Shown here: positions 1 through 23,675 of the stretch, one piece after another
Layout: every line of letters begins with the position of its first letter
Position numbering within the stretch: position 1 is the stretch's first letter
Assembly: GCA_022707425.1 (NCBI GenBank)
Contig: JAKJAQ010000009.1
Coordinates: 20,251 to 68,819, forward strand
DNA: 48,569 bases
Source of the DNA: Candidatus Babelota bacterium
GTDB taxonomy: Bacteria; Babelota; Babeliae; Babelales; JACPOV01
Reading direction: 5' to 3'
Position numbers and translations under genes: made by a program
The notes under the pieces: model-generated
What the model saw: only the letters and a program-made list of their open reading frames with translations
Databases searched by the model: none
What the model was told of the DNA's origin: nothing

Positions 1-392
1 GTATTTCCCATAGCAACCGCCGTTGAAACGAGTGACCCTCCACATACCACAATAAGAAGGAGTAGCGATAGAAGCGCTAATAAACAATAAGCAACGGTAC
101 GTGAAAAATAAACAAATGCACGACGCCAAACATTTGGCAAATTTACTGGATCAATTGGTAATATACGTACCCAACCGACACCTGCATACATAAAAAGCAA
201 TGCACCTAAAAAATCAACATGCACGAACGGATCCCACGAATAGTAACCTACGCGGGCTGGTGTATCATCACCCATCTTGTACGCAGCCCATGCTTGTGCA
301 AATCCACCAGTGGTTACACCAACAATGTACGTAAAAGCAAACGTGATAAACGCAATCAAATATTCAGCCGTTTTTAGTGATATCATAGTCAT
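1..392 (-). CDS. Site-2-protease-like (M50-type) membrane protein, degenerate active site, 3' part outside window
   Basis: About 130 N-terminal residues are visible and the frame stays open to the window edge. The start at 392 has AAGG five bases upstream. The protein begins with a hydrophobic segment, followed by GGFAQAWAAYKMGDDT and then DPFVHVD and GWVRILPIDPVNL. This follows the layout of the M50-like S2P family, which has HExxHA(Y/W)xAYxLGDxT, then NPxxHxD, then GWaKPVPVNP. The zinc-binding HExxH is replaced by GGFAQ, so both histidines and the glutamate are lost, while the downstream H-x-D remains. It is probably a membrane pseudoprotease; any function is unknown. It is divergent from the next gene, with 143 bases between them. 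Confidence 0.6.
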   Translation of the reverse strand, partial: MTMISLKTAEYLIAFITFAFTYIVGVTTGGFAQAWAAYKMGDDTPARVGYYSWDPFVHVDFLGALLFMYAGVGWVRILPIDPVNLPNVWRRAFVYFSRTVAYCLLALLSLLLLIVVCGGSLVSTAVAMGN

Positions 393-535
393 CAAAACCT
401 TATAAATTAAAGGTATTTTTCATTAGTCTAAAAAAAATGTGACTATTGGTCAAACAGGCATAATCAAAGCACTTGGCAAAACAACACATTTGAGTAAACT
501 GATTGCCAAAACCAAGTAGCAAAAAAAGGAATGGT

Positions 536-2833
536 ATGAAATCGTTAAAAGCTGCTGATAATAAAATTCAGCCACCTTCACAAATCGAATCTGATGCTCC
601 TGATCTTAACAAGAAAAATGCATGGTGGCGTTATATAGTGCCTCCCTTCATTTTAGCAACTTTTTCATATCTTTTTTATTATCCATCGCTTCATTATGAC
701 TTTCAATTTGATGATATTGTGAATATTCAGAAATTTTATAATATCAGGCACAATACGTTGTGGAGTTTGTTTTTAATTGGCCCTCGTTGGATAAGCTATT
801 GGCTCAATTCAATCAACTACAAAATTGGCAAATTCAACCCATTTGGTTATCGGTTAATGAATGTATCTTTTCATACACTTACCGGAATTTTGCTTTATTT
901 TTTCATAATCACCCTCTTGTCACGTTTGAAGAAAAATTCATTTTTTTCACAGTATCGTTTCGCAATCGCGTTATGCACAGCAGGTCTTTTTTTGATTCAT
1001 CCAGTGCAAACGCAAACGGTTTCCTATGTCATTCAAGGTCAGTTGGAAGGCCTTGCAACACTTTGTATGATACTTATTTGTCTTACGTTCTTAGCATTTA
1101 CAAGCGCTCGTTCTGTAATAATAAAAAGTGGATTATTGATTATATTTCTTTTTCTTGGATTCGTTTCTGCTGGAACAAAAGAAATTGCAATCGTTTCTCC
1201 TTTTTTAACCCTGCTCATTGATTGGTTTTTTGTTGCTCAAGGTAATTGGAACGATTTAAAAAAAAGAATCTGGATACACAGTTTCTTAATGATTGTTGTT
1301 TGGGGAATGTATCTCTATTTTTTAAAACCAAGTTTTTTTAAAAATGCACTTGGTTTACAAATGCAAGCATTCAACAATATAGGCAATGTATTAACTGAGC
1401 AGCGCTCAGACCCAATTACACCTCTTCATTTTTTTATTTCTCAATTTAAAGTGGTTTTACATTATCTCTTTATGTTCGTTTGGCCATTTTCTATTAGTGT
1501 TGAATATGATTGGAAATTAGTTCATAGTTTTTTTGCTCCTGATTGCATTTTACCGTTGATGATTTTATTGATTGGAGCTTGGTATATTACAAGATTGCTT
1601 TATCGTAATCCAACTTCAATTATTGGATTTGCTGTTCTTTGGTTTTTTATTGCCATTGCACCGCGCTCTAGCATTATTCCTTCTTCTGAACTCCTTGCCG
1701 ATTACAAAACTTATTTAGGTTCTATTGGTATTTTATTTTTAATCGCAGCGGGCTTAGTCAAAGGTATTCAATTGGCTTTTGAATATTTGCAGACAATTCA
1801 CATTCGTTTACCACAAACACATGCGCATCTCATTGGTCTCACACTCCTATTTATTCCATTAGGTTTTCTCACCTATCAACGAAACAAAGTATGGAGTTCA
1901 GCTGAAAAATTTTGGACAAATATTATTAAAAATGCTCCCCTGAAAGCACGCGCGTATAATAATTTGGGTGTTGCATTATCAGAACAAGGACGCATGCAAG
2001 AATCGGTCCCCTTGTATAAAAAAGCAATCTCGATGGACCGTTATTATCCAGATCCGTGGAATAATTTAGCAGTTGCATACTCAACTCTCAACAAACTCGA
2101 TCTTGCAATTGATACCATGAAACAAGCGCTCAATATCCATCGAAATTATCCCGAAGGCTATAACAATTTGGCCTCATTTTTGATTACTAAAAAAGATTAT
2201 GAAACAGCTGAGAAAATGCTTCAAATTGCGCTACAATTGCGTCCCTATTATGGCAAAGCATTTTTTAACTTAGGAAAATTGTATATGGAACAAGGAAAAC
2301 ATGACCAAGCACTCAATGCTTTTCGTTCAGCATGCATGAAAGCAGATCTTGATAATGTAGCAGGATTCACCGTTCTTGCAACCATGGCAATGGCAATGCA
2401 AAAATATCCTGATGCCATCTATGGTTATCAAAAGCTGCTTGAATTTGAACCTAACTCGTATGAACATGCATTTAATTTGGCATATGCTTATAGTCTCAAT
2501 AATCAGTTCAATGAGGCGGTACAAATGTATCGAATGCTTATCTCACGAAATAGCCATGATGGTCGATCCTGGTATAATTTAGGTGAATGCTATTTGCGGT
2601 TAAAAAGCCTTGATTTAGGTCTTGAGTCTTTACAGATGGCAAGAGCGCTTAAATTTCCTATGCCAAATCTCGATCTTCGTATTGCAGCTTGTTTACATGA
2701 TATGGGGCGAATTCAAGAGTCATATGATGTTATTGCTCAATATATTCAAAAACCAGATGCGCCCGAAGATTTAAAAAATACCGCTCGAGCTCTGCTAGGT
2801 GAGATTAATAAGCAACTTTCTCGACAAGCTTAG
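536..2833 (+). CDS. Multi-pass membrane GT-C-like protein with C-terminal TPR repeats (TMTC-like)
   Basis: The protein is 765 residues from ATG 536, which has AAGGA five bases upstream. An in-frame TTG at 503 would add 11 residues but has no clear ribosome site. Residues about 35-460 hold roughly ten hydrophobic segments. The first periplasmic loop has an acidic YDFQFDDIVNI motif, followed by NPFGYRLMNVSFHTLTG and later AGTKEIAIVSP. These are features of GT-C glycosyltransferase-like proteins related to eukaryotic TMTC proteins, which join a membrane domain to TPRs and O-mannosylate proteins. Residues about 470-735 contain seven or so TPR units (for example ARAYNNLGVALSEQGRMQES). A role in glycosylating envelope or exported proteins is inferred; the donor and acceptor are unknown. 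Confidence 0.7.
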   Translation: MKSLKAADNKIQPPSQIESDAPDLNKKNAWWRYIVPPFILATFSYLFYYPSLHYDFQFDDIVNIQKFYNIRHNTLWSLFLIGPRWISYWLNSINYKIGKFNPFGYRLMNVSFHTLTGILLYFFIITLLSRLKKNSFFSQYRFAIALCTAGLFLIHPVQTQTVSYVIQGQLEGLATLCMILICLTFLAFTSARSVIIKSGLLIIFLFLGFVSAGTKEIAIVSPFLTLLIDWFFVAQGNWNDLKKRIWIHSFLMIVVWGMYLYFLKPSFFKNALGLQMQAFNNIGNVLTEQRSDPITPLHFFISQFKVVLHYLFMFVWPFSISVEYDWKLVHSFFAPDCILPLMILLIGAWYITRLLYRNPTSIIGFAVLWFFIAIAPRSSIIPSSELLADYKTYLGSIGILFLIAAGLVKGIQLAFEYLQTIHIRLPQTHAHLIGLTLLFIPLGFLTYQRNKVWSSAEKFWTNIIKNAPLKARAYNNLGVALSEQGRMQESVPLYKKAISMDRYYPDPWNNLAVAYSTLNKLDLAIDTMKQALNIHRNYPEGYNNLASFLITKKDYETAEKMLQIALQLRPYYGKAFFNLGKLYMEQGKHDQALNAFRSACMKADLDNVAGFTVLATMAMAMQKYPDAIYGYQKLLEFEPNSYEHAFNLAYAYSLNNQFNEAVQMYRMLISRNSHDGRSWYNLGECYLRLKSLDLGLESLQMARALKFPMPNLDLRIAACLHDMGRIQESYDVIAQYIQKPDAPEDLKNTARALLGEINKQLSRQA

Positions 2834-2931: not shown

Positions 2932-5403
2932 ATGGAAAAAAAATACGATCATCAATCAAGTGAACAACAAGCACAACAACTGTGGTCAGATGGCCAAGTA
3001 TACAAAACCGATAAACATCCAGGACCTCTCTATTCTGTTGATACACCACCACCTACAGTGTCTGGGGCACTTCACATTGGCCATATTTTTTCCTATACCC
3101 AAACCGATATTATTGCTCGATTTAAACGCATGGATGGTTTTGCCGTATTTTATCCGTTCGGCTTTGATGATAATGGTTTGCCAACTGAACGTTTTGTAGA
3201 AAAAAAATGCAATGTAACTGCTCACAGCATGAAACGGTCCGAATTTATTAATTTGTGTCTCGAGCAAACCGCTGTTGTTGAAAAACAATTTGAACAATTG
3301 TGGCGGCGCATGGGGTTGTCGGTTGACTGGGATGCATGCTATTCAACTATCTCGCCTGAAGTGCGTAAAATTTCACAAGAATCGTTCATTGAGCTTTATA
3401 AAAAAGGTTTTATTTACCGTAAATTTGAGCCGGCACTTTATTGCACAGCCTGCAGAACTTCTGTTGCACAAGCTGAACTTGATGATGTAGAAAAACCATC
3501 ATTTTTTAACGATATTGTTTTCAAGATTGATGATGGAACAGAATTGATCATCGGCACTACACGGCCCGAACTCCTTAGTTCATGTGTTGCACTTCTATAT
3601 CATCCAAATGACAAACGATACCAAGCACTCCAAAATAAAGAAGCAATTGTTCCAATATTTGAAAATCGGGTAAAAATTATTGCTGATGAACTAGTCAATC
3701 CAGACAAAGGAACTGGTTTGGTAATGTGCTGTACATTTGGCGATAAAACAGACATTGTATGGTACAAAAAATATCAACTGCCGTTTAAACAATCAATTGG
3801 TCTTGATGGTCGTTGGCTTGAATCTACAGGACCGCTTGCTGGTTTAAAAGCACATGCAGCTCGAACAAAAATAATTGAACTTTTAAAAGAACAAAATTTA
3901 TTGCGCGCCCAAAAACCAATTACTCACGCAGTAAATGTTCATGAACGTTGCAAGCAAGAAATTGAATATTTACCATTATCACAATGGTTTTTAAATATCT
4001 TAGAACATAAACAGCAGTTTATTAAAATCGCCGATTCAATTGATTGGTATCCTGCATTTATGAAACAGCGATACATAAACTGGGTTGAAAATATTAATTG
4101 GGATTGGTGTTTATCTCGTCAACGTTTCTTTGGTATTCCATTTCCCGCATGGCATTGCACCAACTGCAATGAAATTATTTTGGCCGATCAAGCACAGTTG
4201 CCAGTTGATCCACAAGAAACTTCTTCTACTCAAAAAAAATGTCCTCACTGTGCAAGCACCACTATTCTGGGTGACACCGATGTGATGGACACTTGGAATA
4301 CTTCATCGCTCACCCCTTATATTTGCTCTACATTGTTTAACAATAAAGTAGAAAATCCATTCACCGACAAAGAAACATTGCAATTTATTCCAATGGGCAT
4401 GCGTCCACAAGCACATGATATTATTCGCACCTGGGCTTTTTATACCATTGTAAAAACATGGATGCATCAACATTCAATTCCATGGAAAGAAATTGTTATT
4501 TCTGGTCATGTACTGAGTGATTCAAAAGAAAAATTAGCAAAATCAAAAGATAATGCAAAAACTGATCCTGAACAATTGCTCAAGAGTTATCCAGCTGATG
4601 TAATTCGCTACTGGACTGCATCGGGCAGTTTGGGGCATGATATGGTTTTTTCTGAAACTCAGCTGCGCATTGGTCAACGACTGATTACAAAATTATGGAA
4701 CGCATTTTTATTCGTTAAAGAACACACTGTTTCAATTGATCAAGAATTTGATACAACCAAGTGTGGCACGATTAATGAATGGCTTCTTGATCGCGCATCG
4801 GCAACCTTTAAGAAATATCATTCATATTTGCAAAATCATGAATTTAATTTAGCTCTCGATTCAGTTGAACATTTTTTTTGGCATCATTTTTGTGACAACT
4901 ATCTTGAGTTGATCAAAGACCAACTATTCAAACCAGAACAATATTGCGCAGAACAAATTGTTGCAACGCGCTGGACACTATTTACCGTTGGTTTGCGCAT
5001 TTTACAAATGTATGCACCCTATTTACCGCATATTACTGAAATAATTTATCAAGAATTGTATCGTTCACCATTGAAAATTGATTCGATACATCTAACAAAA
5101 TTCAAAAACATTCAACAACCATATGCATTTGAGTTGAGTGTTCATGCAATTGATCAAGTTATCAATGTGATCACTGCTGTTCGAAAATTAAAATCAGAAC
5201 AACAATTGTCACTCAAAACAGAATTGAATGTATTACGTATTTACAGTCAGCAACAAGAACATTTGGGTTTACTTAAATTGCAAGAACAGTTAATAAAAGG
5301 CATTACACACGCGCATACAATTGAATATCATGTTGGTATTAATGAGAATGGTTCGCAACTAATTCAAGACAATGAAAATCGCATTTTAACGGTGCAGTTG
5401 TAA
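2932..5403 (+). CDS. valS: Valyl-tRNA synthetase
   Basis: This 823-residue class I synthetase charges tRNA-Val. The HIGH motif is GALHIGHIF near residue 45. The editing domain carries TRPELL, and CTAC and CERC cysteine pairs are present. The KMSKS loop reads KLAKS, so both lysines and the serine remain while M and the first S are replaced. Length and motif spacing (DNGLPTERFVEKK, DWDACYSTISPEVRKISQ) resemble the shorter archaeal-type ValRS also found in Rickettsia, rather than the roughly 950-residue E. coli type. It appears to lack the long C-terminal coiled-coil arm. ybeY follows after four bases, so the two are probably cotranscribed. Confidence 0.95.
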   Translation: MEKKYDHQSSEQQAQQLWSDGQVYKTDKHPGPLYSVDTPPPTVSGALHIGHIFSYTQTDIIARFKRMDGFAVFYPFGFDDNGLPTERFVEKKCNVTAHSMKRSEFINLCLEQTAVVEKQFEQLWRRMGLSVDWDACYSTISPEVRKISQESFIELYKKGFIYRKFEPALYCTACRTSVAQAELDDVEKPSFFNDIVFKIDDGTELIIGTTRPELLSSCVALLYHPNDKRYQALQNKEAIVPIFENRVKIIADELVNPDKGTGLVMCCTFGDKTDIVWYKKYQLPFKQSIGLDGRWLESTGPLAGLKAHAARTKIIELLKEQNLLRAQKPITHAVNVHERCKQEIEYLPLSQWFLNILEHKQQFIKIADSIDWYPAFMKQRYINWVENINWDWCLSRQRFFGIPFPAWHCTNCNEIILADQAQLPVDPQETSSTQKKCPHCASTTILGDTDVMDTWNTSSLTPYICSTLFNNKVENPFTDKETLQFIPMGMRPQAHDIIRTWAFYTIVKTWMHQHSIPWKEIVISGHVLSDSKEKLAKSKDNAKTDPEQLLKSYPADVIRYWTASGSLGHDMVFSETQLRIGQRLITKLWNAFLFVKEHTVSIDQEFDTTKCGTINEWLLDRASATFKKYHSYLQNHEFNLALDSVEHFFWHHFCDNYLELIKDQLFKPEQYCAEQIVATRWTLFTVGLRILQMYAPYLPHITEIIYQELYRSPLKIDSIHLTKFKNIQQPYAFELSVHAIDQVINVITAVRKLKSEQQLSLKTELNVLRIYSQQQEHLGLLKLQEQLIKGITHAHTIEYHVGINENGSQLIQDNENRILTVQL

Positions 5404-5407
5404 AAAA

Positions 5408-5863
5408 ATGGTTACGATAAAAAATAGTCAGCGAAAAATTAAGTATAATCCAGCGCACTTAAAAAAAGATGCACAATCTATTCTCCATTTTTTGAATTAT
5501 GGTGATTTTGATTTGGGAATTTGGTTAACAACCAATAAAACAATTCATCGCTACAATAAAGAATACCGCGAAAAAGACAAACCAACTGACATTCTTTCAT
5601 TCGCCTATCACCCAGATTTAAAACCAGGTAAACGGATCATTGTTCATGAAGATGAAGACAAAAATCTTGGCGATTTAATTATTTCTCTTGAATATGTTAA
5701 CCAAGTTGCAGATGAACTTGGCGTTTCTCTTGATGAACGCATGCGTGTTTTACTTGTGCATGGCATTTGTCATCTACGCGGTTATGATCATGAAACCGAT
5801 TCAGAATATAAAATCATGCACAAAGAAGAAAAACGCATTTTAGATTTTTTAAAAAAATCGTAA
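5408..5863 (+). CDS. ybeY: Endoribonuclease YbeY (rRNA maturation factor)
   Basis: The protein is 151 residues, normal for the family. The signature HGICHLRGYDH, near residue 118, gives the three zinc-binding histidines of this metal-dependent RNase, which acts in 16S rRNA 3'-end maturation and ribosome quality control. The upstream KPTDILSFAY block is also typical. It starts four bases after the valS stop and reads as the second gene of that operon. Its 3' end faces the convergent nitroreductase gene across 17 bases. Confidence 0.93.
   Translation: MVTIKNSQRKIKYNPAHLKKDAQSILHFLNYGDFDLGIWLTTNKTIHRYNKEYREKDKPTDILSFAYHPDLKPGKRIIVHEDEDKNLGDLIISLEYVNQVADELGVSLDERMRVLLVHGICHLRGYDHETDSEYKIMHKEEKRILDFLKKS

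Positions 5864-23598: not shown

Positions 23599-23675
<77 letters not shown>

Follow-up and report, generated by a model that had tools for sequence, protein, structure and literature searches.

At one edge of the 48,569-nucleotide stretch of DNA analysed here (the window, G000:C20:20251-68819, from a 1.03 Mb genome of the phylum Candidatus Dependentiae, also called TM6 or Babelota) lies a minus-strand gene related to the site-2 proteases (S2Ps), in which other residues stand in place of the zinc motif HExxH. The features of this gene and of its upstream neighbour are as follows.

1..392, minus strand: N-terminal part (about 130 codons) of the pseudo-site-2-protease (pseudo-S2P) gene, running off the window edge into a 78-base N-run
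G000:C20:19945 to about 20172, minus strand: C-terminal part of the pseudo-S2P gene, beyond the N-run
308-261, minus strand: GGFAQAWAAYKMGDDT in the pseudo-S2P frame
294..308, minus strand: GGFAQ in place of HExxH (H to G, E to G, H to Q)
204..248, minus strand: GYYSWDPFVHVDFLG, the counterpart of GRLTLNPxxHxDxxG, kept
243..245, minus strand: Tyr where active copies of the phylum have the Arg of GRLTLNP
141..176, minus strand: GWVRILPIDPVN, the counterpart of GWAKPVPFNPxN, kept
503..2833, plus strand: divergent membrane protein with a TPR tail (seven PF00515 stretches), adjoining the family upstream in 30 of 64 loci

The start codon of the gene is an ATG at 392-390 or at 386-384. The reading frame is interrupted by 78 N, past which the C-terminal frame (LYLSVILGVLSFILDGFRF...) resumes and is followed by tyrS, the gene for tyrosyl-tRNA synthetase (TyrRS). 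When a family profile was run over the contig, both pieces were matched in order (model positions 1-132 and 161-236), most simply because they belong to one gene with an unread stretch. Completion of the gene from the neighbouring contig therefore recovered both ends, while the N-run between them is still blank. The letters LDG (FILDGFRF) are kept, so that a possible ligand Asp remains, and the window row holds X at the columns of the two prolines that precede this motif in active copies. On the other side, the TPR-gene family is the commonest immediate upstream neighbour of the family and is mentioned as context only. Further along the plus strand, a class I aminoacyl-tRNA synthetase gene (2932-5403, ValRS-like by eye) is followed by a small gene (5408-5863) that we presume to be YbeY-like; 27 of 105 loci have a relative of this synthetase nearby. 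Above its gathering threshold, Rfam matched a single feature of the window, a tRNA (23599-23672, plus strand), and it matched nothing else in the six sources searched.

The original prediction held that the HExxH of an M50 peptidase had become GGFAQ while the rest of the family pattern was kept. Both statements are borne out, as the open frame on the minus strand reads GGFAQ at 308-294 and the GYYSWDPFVHVDFLG and GWVRILPIDPVN blocks are present. The proposed M50 likeness stands as homology and is best placed with a set of small S2Ps that carry GRLTLNPxxHxD; the 131-residue window piece matched no Pfam family at cut-off (best E 0.15, with PF02163 absent at E up to 5) and no NCBIfam model. The same piece matched genes of other genomes with an intact HExxH at E values down to 1.6e-15 (the gene in L042), on which grounds a chance match was rejected. 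Within the window's own genome, the active-family profile found, at E up to 0.001, no other active small-type S2P; it matched only the gene described here and, in a longer RseP-like M50 gene, the C-terminal part. Pfam M50 was assigned to two longer genes in this genome.

A homologue of the 131-residue piece was present in 93 of 101 genomes of the phylum, and 110 family frames were drawn from 96 fetched loci (L006-L101). HExxH is found in 19 of these frames (active copies) and is absent from the other 91 (dead copies), so that loss of the motif is shared by the relatives of the window gene, as are the kinds of substitution. The position of the catalytic Glu is occupied by Gly in 88 of the 91 dead copies, by Asn in two and by Thr in one; the first His is mostly replaced by Ala, Ser, Arg or Asn, and the second mostly by Arg (30), Gln (30), Lys (12) or Glu (9). 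The original prediction would have failed on a functional HExxH elsewhere in the protein, and none occurs anywhere in the 91 dead frames, the window frame having been scored up to the N-run and its part past the N-run inspected by eye. Beyond the motif, Arg(+21) of GRLTLNP is present in all 19 active copies and in none of the dead ones, where it has become Phe (66), Tyr (11), Leu (8) or another residue (6). The dead copies fall into two groups according to the LPxPPxDG segment: in 20 genes (PSA) its PP is aligned, and is kept in 19, while in 71 genes (PSB), including that of the window and its genus, the PP is a gap.

Several positions outside the zinc motif are well conserved in dead copies. 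The G of GD is kept in 87 of 91 and D(+13) in 88, the Pro of NP in 89, and His(+29) of NPxxH in 84. The retention of D(+13) and His(+29) might be taken to mean that catalysis persists through other residues, with the GD, H and D of GDxT...NPxxHxD binding a metal or acting otherwise in what would still be an enzyme. All 19 active copies have these residues too, however, so that none of them is a new ligand; only 65 of 91 dead copies retain D(+31), HExxH is gone from every dead copy, and the PP before the third-ligand loop is missing throughout PSB. We regard a surviving enzyme as very improbable. That the dead copies, the window gene among them, are pseudo-S2Ps is, in our assessment, almost certain.

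The pattern of nucleotide change argues that the dead gene is maintained. Between two species of the window's genus (L007-L008), the dead gene shows dN 0.02, dS 0.51 and omega 0.04 over 232 codons, and tyrS of the same pair has an omega of 0.03. The other pairs show wide divergence or saturation of silent sites, and omega of the dead gene, where it could be computed in them, ranged from 0.07 to 0.38 (highest in L069-L095). No internal stop was found among the matches listed for the 131-residue piece. These observations support the proposal that the gene encodes a conserved pseudoprotease and is not in decay. The N-run that cuts the window gene might raise the suspicion of gene decay or of a contig-end artefact; most genomes of the phylum, however, have open homologues with substitutions of the same kind, and these, together with the selection acting on them, leave this explanation practically no room, and it was rejected. 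A different possibility is passive retention, in which the protein would have a weak structural role or the gene would merely carry expression signals of tyrS. It accords with the finding that, in 13 of 14 pairs, the dead copy is less conserved than the adjacent tyrS (for example, identity 0.67 vs 0.82) and with the highest computable omega. Against it stand the omega of the closest pair, the several positions held in 84 to 89 of 91 dead copies and the lack of stops in the listed matches, and we consider passive retention distinctly unlikely.

By copy number, the 93 genomes divide into 75 with dead copies only, 16 with both kinds and two with active copies only. One of the latter, G071, has a single active copy, and the other, G063, has two active copies before tyrS; this tandem active pair (L061 3944-5278, plus strand) looks as if an active duplicate had replaced the dead copy. 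In three genomes of one genus (G010, G011 and G012; loci L023/L067, L032/L068 and L028/L042), a dead copy at tyrS is accompanied by an active copy elsewhere. Eight of the 101 genomes gave no match in the initial search. One of these, G035, has a dead gene directly before tyrS after all, and the tyrS genes of G039 and G040 are situated near contig ends (judged for G039 from coordinates only). The remaining five genomes without a family member also contain no tyrS above the NCBIfam cut-off, and the locus is therefore probably missing from their assemblies.

In 90 of 96 loci, tyrS lies downstream of the family gene or genes in the same orientation, at a distance of 20 bases or fewer in 57 of the 90 and of more than 200 in six, the window gene with its N-run among them. 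Three of the six loci that lack a following tyrS (L042, L067 and L068) are separate extra active copies, and in the other three (L015, L064 and L084) no tyrS frame was found inside the fetched flank; in L106, whose motif is as in L015, tyrS is 1318 bases away. In a neighbour control on 66 loci with wider flanks, the immediate downstream gene was tyrS in 60 of 64 loci, and no single cluster accounted for the gene after tyrS in more than 4 of 56. Adjacency that is seldom broken amid a scrambled gene order, the operon-like spacing, and the joint absence of family and tyrS from the five genomes that have no contig-end explanation could all be read as signs of a functional tie to TyrRS: the protein would anchor or regulate the synthetase at the membrane, or serve a membrane step that uses Tyr-tRNA, its S2P ancestry being raw material. 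Active S2Ps occupy the same place in G071 and G063, however, so that any such link would be older than the loss of catalysis; gene order can also be preserved, without any contact, through co-transcription with an essential gene; and the genomes without both genes probably lack the locus in assembly. A direct tie to TyrRS therefore appears unlikely to us as the explanation of the family.

Relatives outside the phylum served as a control. The scan took a single genome for each species (84,980 according to the description of the tool) and used two peptide patterns that exclude the zinc motif; the best 80 of 186 relatives were examined, so that pseudo-S2Ps of other phyla could sit among the others. 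HExxH was found in 70 of 71 loci from other groups (L111-L181, of which L143 is titled simply 'bacterium'), the exception, L136, being cut at its N-terminus, and in none of the nine further loci assigned to the phylum that the scan returned (L102-L110, seven with Dependentiae, TM6 or Babeliales in the title and two with 'bacterium' alone). Within the examined sample, loss of HExxH is thus specific to the Dependentiae. A search at E 1e-10 detected no tyrS frame in the flanks that were fetched for the 71 outside loci. As a separate observation, the outside active S2P is followed in 18 of these loci by a gene of one and the same family, on the same strand and at a median distance of 4 bases; its representative in a Ruminococcus record (L173 2690-3412, plus strand) reads like ScpA by eye.

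Profile comparison relates the dead and active forms to each other. An hhalign comparison of PSB with the active family gave a probability of 99.8 and an E value of 4.4e-30 over 207 columns, and of PSB with PSA a probability of 99.7 and an E value of 2.7e-25. To judge from these alignments, the dead family is descended from the S2Ps of family M50. PF02163, at E up to 1, recognised 17 of 17 active members, 16 of 20 PSA members and none of the 27 PSB members scanned. In a search of PDB sequences, the active profile retrieved 3b4r together with RseP and SpoIVFB entries, and the dead profile gave no match up to E 10.

AlphaFold2 models were obtained for a dead PSB relative (L102, pLDDT 93.3) and for an active relative from outside the phylum (L172, pLDDT 91.6); the structure alignments took in 65 and 46 of the 80 species-scan loci. 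The comparison with S2P structures called for by the original prediction succeeded for the active model, which matched them with VIA-align Z scores of 8.5 to 12.1 (the top nine rows being S2P) and with 3b4r as the best Foldseek match (E 1e-3). For the dead model, no S2P structure appeared in the best 50 of 115 Foldseek matches or in the best 50 of 344 VIA-align chains with Z of at least 2, an absence that does not amount to a new fold; its best rows were unrelated proteins (Z about 7, best Foldseek E 0.26). According to lists of secondary-structure elements, compared without superposition, the dead model has an unbroken helix at 167-206 with an extra helical stretch before it, whereas the active model has two helices (115-136 and 145-151) split by the stretch that holds LPIPPLDG. 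We suggest that this unbroken helix and the extra stretch are the reason for the dead model's lack of an S2P match. The fold of the dead branch may have been remodelled around the lost metal site.

A tree was built from 80 rows with the motif columns omitted, comprising 30 of 71 PSB, all 20 PSA, 17 of 19 active (two cut by contig ends being omitted) and 13 of 71 outside sequences. PSA (support 99/99), PSB (100/100) and the active phylum copies (98/95) each fall on one side of a branch. In the free tree PSA groups with the active copies (94/86, an unstarred branch) and PSB sits on a long branch; a tree constrained to unite PSA and PSB in a single clade is not rejected (p-AU 0.318). Given the long branches and the free tree, a single dead clade is a possible reading. 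One origin of the dead groups is favoured by features that they share, namely the change from Glu to Gly, the lost Arg(+21), for which Phe stands in most copies, and their common position before tyrS.

Gene arrangements in living species provide the corresponding stages. A dead gene followed by an active gene on one strand occurs in 13 loci, with tyrS next in the 11 that have tyrS in the fetched DNA. An active copy is missing from the loci of seven PSA genes (L082, L093, L096, L097, L098, L099 and L101), and in three of these (L096, L099 and L101) tyrS follows the dead gene after 9 to 18 bases. Near relatives of these three in the tree carry an active copy at that place, and most simply, therefore, the active copy has been lost there and the dead copy kept. 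The sampled species thus include loci with active copies only, with dead and active copies together, with dead copies only that have PxPPxDG, and with dead copies only that are without the PP. We propose a model in which an S2P gene beside tyrS would have been duplicated in an early ancestor, the upstream duplicate would have lost zinc binding and become a non-catalytic subunit, and the active copy would later have been deleted in many lineages while the dead copy stayed.

Nearly every sampled genome of the phylum keeps the dead version beside the same neighbour gene, and the protein therefore probably does its job without cutting. We favour, with somewhat better than even confidence, the reading that it is a pseudo-S2P conserved throughout the phylum, which arose when an S2P was duplicated and has been retained as a client-binding membrane protein without catalysis. 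The former substrate groove would still bind transmembrane segments of such clients. Beside an active copy, the dead protein would be a regulatory partner that gates substrates or presents them, which is the form of the model we prefer for the tandem species; where it stands by itself, as it does in the genome of the window, it would keep hold of clients, shield them or pass them to FtsH, in the manner of rhomboid pseudoproteases. That action as an adaptor or partner is the actual function of the dead copy is a more tentative proposal, plausible to us and yet short of an even chance. FtsH (Peptidase_M41) is encoded in 96 of 101 phylum genomes and in 10 of 14 control genomes, and its wide occurrence in bacteria means that its presence says little for the adaptor reading. 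In three genomes of one genus (G024, G025 and G026), seven or eight Peptidase_M41 stretches were counted, compared with one to four in other matched genomes; several of the stretches in this genus are pieces of one frame.

Three known groups of proteins offer points of comparison. The small bacterial S2Ps (PF02163), which we take to correspond to MEROPS M50, subgroup cd06158 (S2P-M50_like_1), are homologous to the dead family over the 207 columns aligned and have the GD, NPxxHxD and GW...P blocks in common with it; the dead family differs in the missing HExxH, which active S2Ps carry in their first transmembrane helix, in the gap before LDG (71 of 91 copies) and in the replacement of Arg(+21). 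EGY3, a chloroplast protein of the EGY group, is likewise an S2P homologue without the zinc motif that is conserved in its own clade; it is found only in plants, and the likeness is drawn from its description. EGY3 is reported to be linked to the stability of other proteins (PMC10978774, PMC9355673), and a paper of 2022 called it the only S2P pseudoenzyme (PMC9355673). A third comparison concerns rhomboid pseudoproteases and is one of working with a dead S2P, not of descent, as rhomboids are a family of serine proteases unrelated to S2P. Inactive rhomboid relatives, the iRhoms and Derlins, handle clients without cutting them. The bacterial rhomboid protease YqgP acts as an adaptor of FtsH independently of its own activity (PMC7231995).

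Among the papers listed by a full-text literature search, which covered mostly papers open without subscription, none dealt with a bacterial pseudo-S2P or with this gene in Dependentiae. A term search of the Babela massiliensis paper (PMC4378268) gave no mention of M50, site-2 or tyrosyl, and a term search of the Chromulinavorax paper (PMC6561590) gave M50 peptidases just named as membrane bound and nothing on this gene.

The family is a widely conserved Dependentiae protein, of which PF02163 misses all 27 stand-alone members scanned. Inactive relatives are well known for rhomboids, and for S2P only the plant EGY3 had been described as of 2022 (PMC9355673). On a more far-reaching reading, to which we give a low probability, a dead intramembrane protease has here outlived its live partner and may have taken on a new role coupled to TyrRS at the membrane. 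With the tandem pairs of dead and active genes, the path from membrane protease to non-cutting regulator becomes testable, and species with the dead copy only, set against those with the tandem, allow the action of the dead copy to be compared with and without a live partner.
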